Of a DNA stretch of 64,000 nt, positions 1,767-6,640 are shown piece after piece. Origin of the DNA: Bacteroidota bacterium (GTDB lineage Bacteria > Bacteroidota > Bacteroidia > B-17B0 > Aurantibacillaceae); contig JACCXH010000051.1 of the NCBI GenBank assembly GCA_013697245.1, positions 124,001 through 188,000 of the forward strand. The letters are read 5' to 3'. How positions within the stretch are numbered: position 1 is the stretch's first letter; every line of letters begins with the position of its first letter. Position numbers and translations under genes: made by a program. Under the pieces are notes generated by a model. The model did no database searches, was not told where the DNA came from, and saw nothing but the letters and a program-made list of their open reading frames with translations.

Positions 1767-4700
1767 ATGAAAAGAATAAGCTCACTTATAGTAGTTTTAA
1801 GTTTTTTAAATTTTAATTTTTTTGGGCAATCTACTTTCCCCACAAATGGTGCGCCATTTAATACACATAGTATTTATGCTTTTGTAAACGCCACAATTTA
1901 TGTAGACTTTGAAACGGTTATTAAAAAAGGAACTCTTTTAATACAGGATGGGAAAGTTTTAAATGCTGCCGAAAAATTAGAGATTCCCAAAAATGCTATT
2001 GTTTACGACTTGAATGGTAAATTTATTTATCCTTCGTTCATTGATCTGTATTCTGATTATGGTATGCAGGAAGTAAAAACATTTATTTCCGGAGTGGGTC
2101 ACCGCCCGGTTGGCACACCACAAACTGAAAGCAATGTTAAAGGTGCATACGGCTGGAACCAGGCAATAAAAGCCGATAACGAAGCTGTTAAAATTTTTAT
2201 TTCCAATAAAGATAAAGCTGAAGAGTTAAAGAAAACCGGTTTTGGTGTAGTGCTTTCTTGCCAAAAAGATGGTATTGTAAGAGGAAGCGGGGTATTAGTA
2301 AATTTAGGTAATAAGAATGAGAACGAAAGTATCATTCTTGATAAAGCTGCCGGATTCTATTCATTTTCAAAAGGCACTTCAGCACAGGAGTATCCAAGTT
2401 CTTTAACAGGAAGTATTGCTTTGCTGAGACAAACTTATTACGATGCTTTATGGTATTCGCAAAATAAAAATAAAACCGAATATAATATTTCACTGGAAGG
2501 ATTTAATAAAATAAAAGATTTACCTTCTATTTTTGAAGCTAATGATAAATACAATGCCTTAAGAGCTGCAAAGATAGGAAGCGAGTTTAATATTAAATAT
2601 ATTATTAAGGCCGGTGGTAACGAGTATCAGAGAATTAACGATATTCAAAACACGCATTTAAAATATATTGTGCCCTTAAATTTTCCAATCGCTTACGACG
2701 TAGAAGATCCATTTGATGCCGAAGCAGTTTCGTTGGCAGATCTAAAACACTGGGAACTTGCGCCTACAAATCCTGCAGCTTTTGAAAAAAATGACATCCA
2801 GTTTTGTTTAACCTCTGCCGATCTTAAAGATAAAGGCCAATTTTTAACTAACCTCAGAAAGGCTGTAAAATATGGCCTTTCAGAAAAAATGGCTTTAAAA
2901 GCGTTAACTGTTAACCCGGCCAAATTTATTAATGAGCAGGATAAAATGGGTGCGTTAAAGAAAGATTTTGCCGCGAATTTTTTTATCAGTAATAGATCAA
3001 TTTTTGATAATGATGCAAGTATCATGCAAAATTGGGTAGCAGGCGAACCAACTGTTTTTTCAGATATTAATACGCCGGATATTCGGGGTAATTACGTTTT
3101 AAATACGCCTGATAAGAACTTTAAAGTTAAATTCTCAGGCGATGTAAATGTGCCGCAGGCGAAGATTACTATTGATACGACCCGCAAAAATTTAAATTAT
3201 TCCTTCTCTAATAATCTATTGGCTTTTAGTTTTTCTTACGATTCAACCAAAGCAATACGTGGTACAGGAAATTATAACCTCGAAAATAAATTTTTTGAAG
3301 GTAAAGCTCAAGCTGCTAATGGCGAATGGTTTGATTTTAAATTAGTGTTTGAATCAACAGTAGATACAGCAACTAAAGCAAAACCGGCAGAAAAAAAAGC
3401 TGAGTTAGGAAAGGTGATCTATCCCTTTAACGCTTACGGTGAGCCATTGCCCGAAGAGCAAGGTTTGTTCAAAGATCAATGGAATAAATTCAAGAATCGT
3501 TACTCTGCAATTTTAATAAAAAACGCAACTGTTTGGACGAATAGTGGCGATAGCGTTTTAGAAGATCACGATGTATATATAGTAGAAGGAAAAATTGTTC
3601 GCATTGCAAAAAATATTGACGCACCAAAAATGGCATTTGCTAAAATTATTGATGCTAAAGGAAAGCATTTAACACCGGGAATTATTGATGAGCACAGTCA
3701 TATTGCTTTAACGGCTGGAGTTAATGAAGGAACACAAGCAAGTAGCGCTGAAGTTAGAATGGGAGATGTTTTAAATCCTGAGGACATTAATATTTACCGT
3801 CAACTTTCAGGAGGTGTTACAACTGCACAGCTATTGCATGGCTCGGCCAACCCTATTGGCGGGCAAAGTGCTATAATTAAATTAAGATGGGGCCATACCG
3901 CCGAAGATCTTAAATATGAAAAATCAGACGGCTTTATAAAATTTGCTTTGGGCGAAAATGTAAAGCAAAGTAATTGGGGTGATTTCAACTCTACTCGTTT
4001 TCCTCAAACAAGAATGGGCGTAGAGCAAGTGTACAATGATTATTTTACCCGCGCTAAAGAATACCATCTACAATGGCAAACTTTCTCAAAATTAAATCCA
4101 AAAGATATTGAGAAAAATAAAATCGTAACTCCTCGGAGAGACCTGGAGTTGGATGCAATGGCAGAGATCTTAAATAAAAAACGTTTTATAACCTGTCATA
4201 GTTATGTGCAAAGCGAAATTAATATGTTGATGCACGTAGCAGATAGTTTCGGATTTAAAGTAAATACATTCACACATATTTTGGAGGGCTACAAAGTAGC
4301 TGATAAAATGAAAGCACATGGTGTAAGTGCCTCTACTTTTTCAGACTGGTGGGCATATAAAAATGAGGTTGTTGAAGCAATCCCTTACAACGCAGCAATT
4401 CTAACAAGAATGGGAGTTAACACTTCTATGAATAGCGATGATGCCGAAATGGCCCGTCGCCTAAATCAGGAGGCTGCTAAGGCGATTAAGTATGGCGGAT
4501 TAACAGAAGCGGAGGCGCTGAAACTGGTAACCTTAAATCCTGCAAAAATGCTTCATATTGATGATAAGGTAGGCAGTATTAAAGTAGGTAAAGTGGCAGA
4601 TGTTGTGTTGTGGTCAGATAATCCACTTAGCGTTTATGCAATTGCAGACAAAACAATTATTGACGGGCAAATTTATTTTGACAGGGAAGAAGACGCGAAA

Positions 4701-4862
4701 CTAAAACAATATATTAAAACAGAACGTGCCAGGATAATTGCAAAATTATTATTAGAGAAACAAAAAGGTGGTAAAGTTGAAAAATTAAAAAGTAAGCATG
4801 AACGTTTGTATCACTGTAATACACTCGAAGGTATTGATGAGGAATTAACGGGACAAAGATAA
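1767..4862 (+). CDS. Secreted two-domain amidohydrolase (imidazolonepropionase-like)
   Basis: This 1031-residue protein has an N-terminal signal peptide (cleavage near FFGQS) and two amidohydrolase-like halves. The C-terminal half carries the metal ligands: DEHSH (His643, His645), CHSY (His811), THILEG (His837) and NSDDAE (Asp891). The N-terminal half (about residues 30-430) has the usual entry strands, but its equivalent of the HxH site reads PSFIDLYSD and lacks both histidines, so it is probably non-catalytic. The substrate is unknown; related enzymes hydrolyse cyclic amides or peptides. In Bacteroidota such genes often sit beside a shorter homologue, as here, but a DUF559 cassette now lies between the two. 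Confidence 0.85.
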   Translation: MKRISSLIVVLSFLNFNFFGQSTFPTNGAPFNTHSIYAFVNATIYVDFETVIKKGTLLIQDGKVLNAAEKLEIPKNAIVYDLNGKFIYPSFIDLYSDYGMQEVKTFISGVGHRPVGTPQTESNVKGAYGWNQAIKADNEAVKIFISNKDKAEELKKTGFGVVLSCQKDGIVRGSGVLVNLGNKNENESIILDKAAGFYSFSKGTSAQEYPSSLTGSIALLRQTYYDALWYSQNKNKTEYNISLEGFNKIKDLPSIFEANDKYNALRAAKIGSEFNIKYIIKAGGNEYQRINDIQNTHLKYIVPLNFPIAYDVEDPFDAEAVSLADLKHWELAPTNPAAFEKNDIQFCLTSADLKDKGQFLTNLRKAVKYGLSEKMALKALTVNPAKFINEQDKMGALKKDFAANFFISNRSIFDNDASIMQNWVAGEPTVFSDINTPDIRGNYVLNTPDKNFKVKFSGDVNVPQAKITIDTTRKNLNYSFSNNLLAFSFSYDSTKAIRGTGNYNLENKFFEGKAQAANGEWFDFKLVFESTVDTATKAKPAEKKAELGKVIYPFNAYGEPLPEEQGLFKDQWNKFKNRYSAILIKNATVWTNSGDSVLEDHDVYIVEGKIVRIAKNIDAPKMAFAKIIDAKGKHLTPGIIDEHSHIALTAGVNEGTQASSAEVRMGDVLNPEDINIYRQLSGGVTTAQLLHGSANPIGGQSAIIKLRWGHTAEDLKYEKSDGFIKFALGENVKQSNWGDFNSTRFPQTRMGVEQVYNDYFTRAKEYHLQWQTFSKLNPKDIEKNKIVTPRRDLELDAMAEILNKKRFITCHSYVQSEINMLMHVADSFGFKVNTFTHILEGYKVADKMKAHGVSASTFSDWWAYKNEVVEAIPYNAAILTRMGVNTSMNSDDAEMARRLNQEAAKAIKYGGLTEAEALKLVTLNPAKMLHIDDKVGSIKVGKVADVVLWSDNPLSVYAIADKTIIDGQIYFDREEDAKLKQYIKTERARIIAKLLLEKQKGGKVEKLKSKHERLYHCNTLEGIDEELTGQR

Positions 4863-4870
4863 AAAGTTCT

Positions 4871-4903
4871 ATTCCCCCTTTATAAAAGGGGGCTAGGGGG
4901 ATT
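4871..4903. repeat. Left inverted palindromic repeat of the DUF559 cassette
   Basis: This 33-bp block contains CCCCCTTT-ATA-AAAGGGGG, an 8-bp perfect stem with a 3-nt loop, followed by CTAGGGGGATT. Its reverse complement matches 5315-5347 closely at both ends (AATCCCCCTA and GGGGGAA), so the two blocks are inverted repeats around the DUF559 gene. Read in frame, such blocks encode peptides like IPLAPFYKGG or NPPNPLRPGG, which I recall from repeats in other genomes. The hairpin could also act as a weak terminator for the upstream amidohydrolase gene. Confidence 0.85.
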
Positions 4904-4905
4904 AA

Positions 4906-5286
4906 ATGGAAACAAAAAGTCACTATAATAAATCGCTTAAATATTTAGCGAGGGATAAAAGGAATGATTCATCTTTTGGAGAAGTTCTTTTGTGGAAGAA
5001 TTTATTAAGTAAATCGAGATTAGGATTTCAGTTTAATAGACAATTTCCTTTTGAAAATTATATTTTAGATTTTATTTGTAGCAAATTAAAATTGGTTATT
5101 GAGGTTGACGGTTATTCTCATAGTTTTAAACAAGATGAAGATAATTTAAGGGATGAGAATTTGAATCATTTAGGGTATGAAGTACTTAGATTTTCAGGGC
5201 ATGATATTAAATATAATTTTGAAAATGTTACAAGAGCTGTAGTTGCAAAAGTTGATAAGTTGAAAATTAAATATTCTTATGAATAA
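4906..5286 (+). CDS. DUF559 / Vsr-like endonuclease-domain protein
   Basis: This 126-residue protein has the DUF559 pattern: Glu26 in GEVLLW, FNRQFPFENYILDF with Asp55, then VIEVDGYSH with Glu66, Asp68 and His72, and LGYEVLRF near the end. The fold is related to very-short-patch-repair (Vsr-type) endonucleases, and all the acidic residues expected for a nuclease are intact. Biochemical function in this family is mostly untested. The ATG lies 3 bp after the left palindrome, and the gene ends by overlapping the next gene by 8 bp. It could be the mobility enzyme of the cassette or a passenger; the sequence does not decide this. Confidence 0.85.
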   Translation: METKSHYNKSLKYLARDKRNDSSFGEVLLWKNLLSKSRLGFQFNRQFPFENYILDFICSKLKLVIEVDGYSHSFKQDEDNLRDENLNHLGYEVLRFSGHDIKYNFENVTRAVVAKVDKLKIKYSYE

Positions 5287-6640
5287 AACGATGGAAAAAA
5301 TTAGTAAGATGGTCAATCCCCCTAACCCCCTTCGCCCAGGGGGAATTGCGGTATATTATAACTTTGTTTTAATTTTATTTATTTTAACATGCAAAGATGT
5401 CAACGCTCAAAGAACATATTCGCATATTGCATTAATTAATGCTACCGCTCATATTGGAAACGGAAAAGTAATTGAGAATAGTTTAGTTGTGATCAATAAA
5501 AACAAACTGGAAATTGTTAGCAGCATTACAGGTATCCGTTTAAATCCTTCTTCTTACGATACCATTATTGATCTTTCTGGAAAACACATTTATCCCGGCT
5601 TAATTAATACTGATAATATTCTTGGCCTGCATGATGCAGAAGCTGTAAGGGCTACCAAAGATTTTGCAGAGGTTGGAAATATCAACCCGCACATTAGAGC
5701 ATTAATTGCTTACAATACGGATAATATAATTGTGCCAACCGTAAAAACAAACGGCATTTTGTATACGCAAGTAACGCCACGCGAAGGCTTGATCAGCGGG
5801 TCATCTTCAATAATGGCTTTAGAAGGATGGAATTGGGAAGATGCAGTTTTTAAAGCCGATGACGGTATTCATTTAAATTTTCCAAAAGCCATTAAACGCA
5901 AATTTACCGAAGAAGAAGGGTTGTCGGTAGCAACAAATAAAAACTATACTACCGAGATTAATTATTTGTATAAATTTTTTGCTGATGCACAGGCCTATTG
6001 TTTAATGCCAACTCCTGCCGAAAAAAATATCCGATTTGAAGCTATGCGCGGTGTTTTTAATGGTACCGCTAATTTATACCTGCATACGGAAAAAGCAAAG
6101 GATATTTTAAGCGCAATTAATTTCGCAATAAAATACGCTATTAAAAAACCGGTAATTGTAGGGGGCAAAGAATCATACAAGATCACTTCTGTTTTAAAGA
6201 AAAATAATATTCCGGTTATGCTAAATCGTGTGAACGACCTTCCGGATAATGCTGACGATGATGTGGACATTGTTTTTCGTACACCTTATTTATTGCAAAA
6301 AGACAGTATTTTGTTTTGTCTTGAGTTGGAAGGGGATATGGAAGCCATGCAAAGCCGAAATCTGCCTTTTAATGCCGGGGCGGCCGCTGCTTATGGTCTC
6401 ACAAAAGAACAAGCCTTGGCAAGTATAACCTATAATGCCGCAAAAATTTTAGGCGTTGATAAAGAATTAGGAACTTTGGAAGAAGGAAAACTAGCTTCGC
6501 TGGTTGTAAGTGAAGGTGATATTTTAGATATGAAAACCAACAATATTATTTTGGCATATATTGCCGGAAAAAAAGTTAATCTTATAAATAAACAAACAGA
6601 ATTGTATTTAAAATACAAAACCAAATACGGAATTAAATAA
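5279..6640 (+). CDS. Amidohydrolase-like secreted protein lacking the HxH metal site
   Basis: This 453-residue protein resembles the amidohydrolase superfamily: an entry beta-sandwich (SHIALINATAHIGNGKVI), KHIYPGLINTDN where PGxIDxHxH would be expected, and a C-terminal TYNAAKILGVDKELGTLEEGKLASLVV that is typical of the family. Both histidines of the HxH motif are absent, so it is likely inactive as a metallohydrolase or a partner of the 1031-residue neighbour. A hydrophobic export segment (FVLILFILTC, then VNAQ) begins only after about 24 residues. All in-frame ATG codons (5279, 5291, 5309) lie upstream of or at the palindromic repeat, so translation must pass through it and adds NPPNPLRPGG to the N-terminus. 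Confidence 0.75.
   Translation: MNKTMEKISKMVNPPNPLRPGGIAVYYNFVLILFILTCKDVNAQRTYSHIALINATAHIGNGKVIENSLVVINKNKLEIVSSITGIRLNPSSYDTIIDLSGKHIYPGLINTDNILGLHDAEAVRATKDFAEVGNINPHIRALIAYNTDNIIVPTVKTNGILYTQVTPREGLISGSSSIMALEGWNWEDAVFKADDGIHLNFPKAIKRKFTEEEGLSVATNKNYTTEINYLYKFFADAQAYCLMPTPAEKNIRFEAMRGVFNGTANLYLHTEKAKDILSAINFAIKYAIKKPVIVGGKESYKITSVLKKNNIPVMLNRVNDLPDNADDDVDIVFRTPYLLQKDSILFCLELEGDMEAMQSRNLPFNAGAAAAYGLTKEQALASITYNAAKILGVDKELGTLEEGKLASLVVSEGDILDMKTNNIILAYIAGKKVNLINKQTELYLKYKTKYGIK
5315..5347. repeat. Right inverted palindromic repeat of the DUF559 cassette
   Basis: The block starts AATCCCCCTAACCCCC and ends AGGGGGAATT, and is close to the reverse complement of 4871-4903 apart from the loop region. 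It lies inside the coding sequence of the following amidohydrolase-like gene and encodes residues of the form NPPNPLRPGG. Confidence 0.85.

Follow-up and report, generated by a model that had tools for sequence, protein, structure and literature searches.

The 64,000-nucleotide stretch analysed here (the window; positions 124,001 to 188,000 of contig JACCXH010000051.1, Bacteroidota bacterium assembly GCA_013697245.1) contains a small cassette consisting of a single DUF559 gene placed between two inverted repeats. The gene (4906..5286, + strand) encodes a 126-amino acid (aa) nuclease of the PD-(D/E)XK/EDxHD type (PF04480), and its ATG codon lies directly 3' of the left end repeat (4874..4904, + strand). 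The right end repeat (5315..5346, - strand) is of the same motif type. Each repeat comprises a pyrimidine arm, a complementary purine arm, a 3-nucleotide (nt) loop and a purine tag mirroring the second arm, represented in the left repeat by arm 1 CCCCCTTT, arm 2 AAAGGGGG, the loop CTA and the mirror tag GGGGGATT. This three-block order corresponds to an intrastrand (C.G*G) triplex motif, with 8 triplets in the left repeat (4874-4903) and 6 in the right one (5317-5343), and in both repeats the tag faces the gene. Furthermore, the arms at 4886-4903 and 5315-5332 are inverted repeats with 94% complementarity. A scan of the whole window revealed two triplex motifs of at least 6 triplets, both of them the cassette ends, and the reversed 64-kb sequence, scanned as a control, contained none; the motif criteria were our own and are similar but not identical to those of PMC4666352.

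The cassette is preceded by a two-module amidohydrolase gene (1767..4862, + strand), the ancestral left neighbour of the insertion site, and followed by an amidohydrolase-like gene (5279..6640, + strand) that carries the right repeat inside its N-terminal coding part, where it is translated as NPPNPLRPGG near the start of the open reading frame (ORF). Since the right repeat lies within the 5' end of this ORF, the cassette also replaces or extends the N-terminus of the downstream protein. A preliminary description of the locus, made from the sequence alone, had recognised a 126-codon ORF with residues E26, D55, E66, D68 and H72 of a Vsr-like nuclease, paired palindromic repeats around it and the lack of a transposase. 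The first point was confirmed by the PF04480 match and a residue check; the repeats are indeed paired and inverted, and are triplex motifs, more than palindromes; and DUF559 is the only gene between them, with no transposase gene there. The statement in that description that such repeats encode PLxPLxxGG-like peptides was likewise borne out, by NPPNPLxxGG at the window site and by SPSPxERG, LPSGEDLGG and similar peptides at in-frame insertions elsewhere. Other assignments were tried and rejected: the interval 4700-5500 gave no Rfam RNA family match up to an E value of 1, the PADLOC defence families gave weak matches only (18.8 and 13.7 bits), and the search for a phage origin returned weak matches to 3 phage records.

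The PF04480 profile matched the window protein with 102.6 bits (cut-off 20.6). The five residues named above are invariant in the DUF559 alignment, as is the E-D-H-D set (E66, D68, H72 and D79), which was read from the DUF559 alignment alone. Each catalytic residue is kept in all 69 copies located in ORFs of at least 260 aa and in 163-167 of the 167 standalone copies, and the ratio of non-synonymous to synonymous substitution rates (dN/dS) was 0.02-0.24 in 16 pairs. The predicted structure of the window protein (mean pLDDT 89) was most similar to the gonococcal endonuclease-like protein 3hrl (Z 15.4), which itself matches the DUF559 profile (1.4e-29). The next fold match was the catalytic domain of I-Bth0305I (3r3p; Z 12.3, root-mean-square deviation 2.2, 94 aligned residues, 18% identity), to which a profile match was also obtained (E 1.5e-5), and similarity to the Vsr fold gave a Z of 9.7. 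Domains of similar fold (Z 8.5-9.9) also occur in mitochondrial ribosome subunits of Toxoplasma and Tetrahymena. YcjD, the E. coli member of the family, had earlier been assigned to the PD-(D/E)XK superfamily (PMC1189080), and Caulobacter cells without a cytosine methylase are reported to depend on a DUF559 protein for their response to DNA damage (PMC12907096), a role that fits nuclease activity in vivo.

The downstream gene was matched in 85 of the 87 genomes of the same GTDB family, and the best 30 of these 85 loci were fetched. In 21 of the 30 the two amidohydrolase genes abut, from overlapping to 26 bp apart, with the downstream gene beginning at or just past the end of the upstream one; these are empty sites. 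The DUF559 unit is present in three loci (the window's own genome, G000, and genomes G033 and G011), and four loci were left unscored. One further locus (G025) contains the two repeats only, and the short gene remnants between them are the first DUF559 codons, which indicates that this pair arose by deletion from a full unit. Another (G028) holds a decayed copy with stop codons and eroded repeats. Thus, the earlier proposal that the cassette splits two ancestral neighbours, for which empty sites between the orthologous genes were to be sought, is supported by both flanking genes being amidohydrolase-like and by their adjacency in relatives. In a tree of the downstream gene, the empty genomes G034, G014, G005 and G015 are nested among carriers, which implies more than one gain or loss of the unit, or repeated exchange of the region. 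Intact copies at this site show dN/dS values of 0.08-0.12, that is, purifying selection.

Triplex-motif repeats at DUF559 genes beyond the window

PF04480 is present in 58 of the 87 genomes of the GTDB family. After removal of weak or fragmentary matches and of duplicates (three loci), 93 domains of the 102 DUF559 matches were used to compare each left flank with the reverse complement of its own right flank. The mean inverted-repeat score was 20.4, as against 11.8 for mismatched pairs and 10.05 for shuffled flanks. A score of at least 17 was reached by 59 of the 93 domains and by 23 of 1860 control intervals from the same loci. In further samples, where hits near contig ends were omitted (75 of 80 named and 28 of 29 phylum loci were kept), 54 of 75 named relatives of many phyla reached this score versus 18 of 1500 controls, and six DUF559-rich genomes gave 19 of 31 units. 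The association of paired palindromes with DUF559 genes elsewhere, which the preliminary description had left to be checked, therefore extends across phyla.

Scoring the triplex motif itself led to the same picture. Of 244 DUF559 genes, 208 have a motif no more than 200 bp away on one side or the other and 141 have one on each side, the 244 genes being non-independent samples, as against 19 and 1, respectively, of 364 neighbouring ORFs; among random stretches, 17 of 732 contained a motif. Five loci repeating other records were excluded from motif scoring, the domain tree and the orientation counts, and flanks shorter than 120 nt were also excluded from the random-stretch comparison. By source, the counts for either and both sides were 77 and 50 of 91 genes in the one GTDB family, 63 and 47 of 70 named relatives (the best of at least 529), 26 and 17 of 28 from the phylum table, 19 and 14 of 20 further genes of that table picked because they lie within large ORFs, 21 and 13 of 31 in the six DUF559-rich genomes, and 2 and 0 of 4 plasmid-collection records. 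Under a 300-nt rule, the motif was found at 81 of 93 DUF559 genes and at none of 40 Y1 transposase genes of the same GTDB family, and RAYT was consequently rejected as the partner of the triplex repeats. In the window's genome, RAYT-like Y1 transposases are matched at C41:42618 and at three further positions, and all four lack a triplex motif within 300 nt.

Terminators often take the form of GC-rich hairpins, and a small gene paired by chance with so common a structure, or an artefact of assembly, might in principle account for the cassette. This explanation is hardly credible. It is refuted by the control intervals, the neighbouring ORFs, the random stretches and the Y1 genes, and is further countered by the lack of any other such motif in the window and by cases on complete E. 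coli K-12, Deinococcus, Pseudanabaena and Sphingomonas replicons. The interval, random-stretch and neighbouring-ORF controls likewise ruled out an ordinary terminator.

Nine named records were inspected individually. Motifs of at least 6 triplets stand on both sides of the gene in Deinococcus, Pseudanabaena, Sphingomonas and one Synechocystis copy; on one side in a second Synechocystis copy, Picosynechococcus, Azospirillum and Neisseria gonorrhoeae; and on neither side in the Pseudomonas aeruginosa record. The DUF559 gene of E. coli K-12 is ycjD, and a 10-triplet motif starts 167 nt past its stop codon. E. coli ycjD was found in 3365 of 5426 genomes. In strains without it, the position is described as being taken by the eefRABCD operon (PMC12817139), and such strains therefore do not represent plain empty sites. 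A Synechocystis plasmid bears a DUF559 gene with motifs on both sides just before the BREX gene pglX, an adjacency that echoes the DUF559 inserts within restriction-modification (R-M) genes of Bacteroidota, and a genome with 19 CCTCTCC palindromes (G046) has a pair of oppositely oriented DUF559 genes separated by a few kb.

The anatomy of the units follows rules of its own. Of 153 two-motif units (more than the 141 above, as a longer second loop was allowed in the orientation count), 127 have symmetric tags, 79 inward and 48 outward. Standalone units have 73 inward versus 4 outward tags, and units inside ORFs of at least 260 aa have 44 outward versus 6 inward. A second-loop asymmetry of TTA versus CCG, as in the E. 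coli pairs, was rejected as a general rule, TTA being at exactly one end in 18 of the 153 units. Moreover, similar DUF559 proteins carry similar repeats (rho 0.37, against a maximum of 0.07 in 300 permutations), a correlation from which host phylogeny was not factored out and to which shared host ancestry may add.

Gene-less copies and in-frame copies

In Sphingomonas parapaucimobilis YK209, a DUF559 unit lies between sufB and sufC, and its ends recur elsewhere. A megablast search with this unit retrieved 59 places, counting the unit, in 8 records. Four of five fetched places consist of inverted end pairs of about 98 bp in which identical or nearly identical ends are separated by 31 bp that contain no gene; such a pair also forms part of the fifth place, a longer array, and a further pair occurs in locus L358. 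Three of the five places (L354, L355 and L357) have common outer flanks and may have spread as part of a larger, nested or composite repeat. A second DUF559 gene of YK209 (in the region L358:6050-7924) splits the pnt operon between the transhydrogenase alpha gene and the next transhydrogenase gene. Across sphingomonad sufB-sufC junctions, 14 of 24 contain DUF559 and 10 do not, one of the 10 having a lone repeat; 6 of 30 loci without both genes were left out, and the loci had been picked by similarity to the occupied query. In the window's own genome, locus L003 contains a repeat with a degenerate inverted partner, as judged by eye.

At the genome scale, CCTCTCC palindromes average 3.97 in the 58 DUF559-bearing genomes and 0.21 in the 29 others, with phylogeny not factored out and part of the excess being the units' own ends. 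The C5/G5/G5 pattern, with overlapping hits counted separately, averages 5.02 in 126 genomes with a DUF559 match of E 1e-15 or better versus 0.67 in 170 others, and the reversed control pattern runs in the opposite direction (0.22 versus 1.14).

These counts bear on the proposal that DUF559 is a passenger or parasite, in which case the repeats would be spread by another enzyme (Y1/RAYT or host recombination) and the genes would insert, or be captured, between repeat pairs. The four Y1 matches in the window's genome and the very existence of gene-less pairs would be compatible with it, as would three repeated Legionella segments that combine a transposase with a DUF559 gene and are reported to be hotspots of recombination (PMC12308824). 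Palindromes are also more abundant where the Y1 count is higher (Spearman 0.41), a correlation that falls to 0.26 after accounting for DUF559, whereas the partial correlation of palindromes with DUF559 remains 0.51. Taken with the absence of the motif at the 40 Y1 genes, the origin of the G025 gene-less pair by deletion from a full unit and the co-variation of repeat and protein sequences, this makes a passenger role unlikely.

Many of the top DUF559 matches are located in frame within large ORFs. Family models identified LeuRS, MetH, urocanase, HsdR, ValRS, HsdM, RecG and IcmF as hosts (the HsdM and MetH models scoring below their cut-offs, in partial or split ORFs), and further hosts are the end of a PurL-type amidotransferase, UvrD-type helicases, R-M methylases and an M14 peptidase; roughly a dozen host genes unrelated to one another thus contain related nucleases. 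In a tree built from 236 DUF559 domains, from which domains under 95 aa were excluded, 49 of the 69 in-frame copies (ORFs of at least 260 aa) fall within one 53-leaf clade (support 0.95) that includes four standalone copies and in which the copies from LeuRS, MetH, urocanase, RecG, ValRS, IcmF and PurL are interleaved. Two smaller clades have R-M hosts, with 7 of 8 leaves in HsdM, PglX-like or other hosts and 4 of 4 in HsdR. The tree requires 14 switches between in-frame and standalone state, as against 60 when labels are shuffled.

LeuRS is a recurrent host. Among the 76 genomes with enough LeuRS sequence, 15 have the insert at site 1, a distribution that takes 14 parsimony changes (shuffled mean 13.9), and 5 have it at site 2, which takes 5. 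One LeuRS ORF of 1286 aa (L093) contains two DUF559 domains at two different loops. Read by eye, the repeat alone is present in frame at site 2 as a full motif in genomes G050 and G057 and in related forms in G005, G014, G028, G067 and G077. The exact target site or a duplication could not be read in LeuRS, the loops being variable. In five loci (L133, L125, L126, L145 and L130), peptides encoded by repeats of different families, HPELVSGSQEMLKQVQHD and FDSAQGD, also stand in frame in the site 1 loop, which points to this loop as a general landing place for coding repeats and not for triplex units only.

A resident function offers another explanation of the units: DUF559 would be a Vsr-like repair or restriction enzyme, mostly vertically inherited and frequently lost, its repeats would be regulatory elements, terminators or processed sites, and the in-frame copies would be domesticated. 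The strong purifying selection on DUF559 and the R-M nature of several in-frame hosts agree with this, and DUF559 copies at LeuRS site 1 are partly congruent with the LeuRS tree (rho 0.38, p 0.01), which likely reflects some vertical inheritance. Nevertheless, occupancy of the LeuRS sites is scattered like random labels, a single nuclease clade is common to many unrelated host genes, and gene-less copies of the ends are dispersed; in addition, the rarity of the motif at neighbouring genes argues that it is not a general terminator. We consequently hold a resident role to be quite improbable.

A candidate minimal mobile element

An autonomous unit, gene-less derivatives, solo scars and empty sites are most economically read as the outcome of a nuclease that moves or copies the units. 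On the strength of these sequence comparisons, we infer that the cassette is probably a minimal mobile element in which a homing-endonuclease-like DUF559 nuclease would mobilise triplex-forming ends. The element would comprise one small PD-(D/E)XK nuclease gene of the Vsr/EDxHD homing type and matched inverted ends of the BoxC/PIT type. The DUF559 protein, probably as a dimer, would recognise both ends as a folded single strand or as a cruciform or triplex and would cut at or near the ends or at the target, after which host repair would copy or paste the unit to a new place. Gene-less pairs, similar to REPINs or to miniature inverted-repeat transposable elements, would be mobilised in trans and could give rise to the dispersed BoxC/PIT-type repeats of many genomes. 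Some lineages would tolerate or exploit in-frame insertion in essential proteins, with the nuclease staying intact as an extra domain.

Several observations weigh against this interpretation. Host repair has to be invoked because a hydrolytic nuclease alone cannot join strands, and these sequence comparisons caught no transposition, excision, cleavage or fresh insertion. Most of the 14 high-identity DUF559 pairs compared lie at orthologous sites, and the apparently displaced pairs are few (L037/L040, L085/L087 and L325/L330 (one genome)). In the 30 relatives' loci, neither a target-site duplication nor the exact junction could be read, as the signal-peptide region is too diverged. No motif was found within 200 bp of 36 of the 244 DUF559 genes, nor, at a stricter setting, at 9 of the 14 sphingomonad sufB-sufC copies, and only one flank of E. 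coli ycjD carries such a repeat. Conversely, 5 of the 27 genomes with a net count of at least 5 C5/G5/G5 repeats have no DUF559 match at 1e-15. The partial congruence of the LeuRS-site-1 copies with their host tree adds to these points.

A broader proposal is that DUF559 units form a very widespread, transposase-free mobile class in which a single EDxHD/PD-(D/E)XK nuclease moves triplex ends, and we lean slightly in its favour. The BoxC/PIT repeats found in E. coli, Haemophilus, Synechocystis, Bacteroidota and others would derive from this class. In-frame insertion into core genes (LeuRS, ValRS, MetH, RecG, IcmF and urocanase), with neither intein nor intron, would be the speciality of one branch, which would move from one host gene to another and retain a functional nuclease domain.

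Should the nuclease prove to be the mobiliser, this would be a categorically new class, and a family filed as of 'unknown function' would be the engine of a class of REP-like elements in many phyla. The link to DUF559 supplies a concrete candidate mobility gene for BoxC/PIT repeats, present as ycjD in E. coli K-12. Furthermore, in the in-frame units nuclease genes reside within core proteins in the absence of splicing, and LeuRS is hit repeatedly, which bears on the tolerance of proteins to insertions, on the possible origin of insertion domains in aminoacyl-tRNA synthetases and on the annotation of leuS, metH, recG and hsdR in Bacteroidota.

Comparison with known systems

BoxC/PIT-type repeats were first described in the 1990s. 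PMC4666352 characterises them as motifs able to form an intrastrand triplex, present in over 260 genomes; E. coli K-12 has 23 TM_ECO copies, five inverted pairs among them, and the E. coli motif is reported to form a triplex in vitro. Its authors state that they never found mobility functions near these repeats in E. coli. The window repeats resemble BoxC/PIT/TM_ECO in the three-block motif, in a 3-nt second loop (such as TTA in E. coli) and in inverted pairing, as in K-12, and their stems of 8 and 6 reach the length of at least 6, the comparison having been made by layout and not against the 37-nt consensus. In contrast, the E. coli motif is described there as intergenic, whereas the motif here is tied to DUF559 and also occurs in frame within proteins. 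In searches of an open-licence library, in which most of the papers retrieved were left unopened, we found neither a link of DUF559 or YcjD to triplex or BoxC repeats nor an account of the in-frame inserts.

With regard to the enzyme, I-Bth0305I is a member of the EDxHD homing family (PMC3943268), and a cyanobacterial DUF559 gene has already been placed in this family in a section on inteins (PMC9403480). DUF559 shares with these endonucleases the I-Bth0305I catalytic fold, and its invariant E-D-H-D set may correspond to their motif. It differs from them in that no intron or intein splicing domain was seen in the units read here and in the absence of a long DNA-binding arm, the 126-aa window protein being almost entirely nuclease domain, whereas the 3r3p nuclease domain spans residues 167-263 of a longer protein; in addition, DUF559 units have repeat ends. 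As the YcjD family, DUF559 also resembles Vsr and VsrA in its PD-(D/E)XK assignment and Vsr-like fold, but Vsr repairs T:G mismatches and is linked to a cytosine methylase, and no tie of the window gene to such a methylase emerged here (PMC1189080, PMC12907096).

Rickettsia palindromic elements are in-frame palindromic repeats in genes, a feature matched by the units of relatives, whereas the window repeat only extends an N-terminus; the excerpted account of these elements gives no nuclease gene (PMC3733652), and they were compared by description only. As regards insertion sequences, no transposase gene lies between the repeats of the cassette, and the junctions are too diverged for a target-site duplication to be read.

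A further parallel is the REPIN-RAYT system, with which the units share a gene between inverted palindromic repeats, dispersed gene-less pairs and a tag at one end of the repeat (PMC3733652). RAYT is an HUH (Y1) transposase, whereas the enzyme here is a PD-(D/E)XK/EDxHD nuclease; the REPIN tag is GTAG or CGTC, whereas the tag here is a mirror purine block of the GGGGGATT / GGGGTGGGG type; and recurrent in-frame insertions into core genes are a property of the DUF559 units. By analogy, the best reading of the element is as a counterpart of REPIN-RAYT with an unrelated enzyme, that is, a REP-like element with a dedicated gene.

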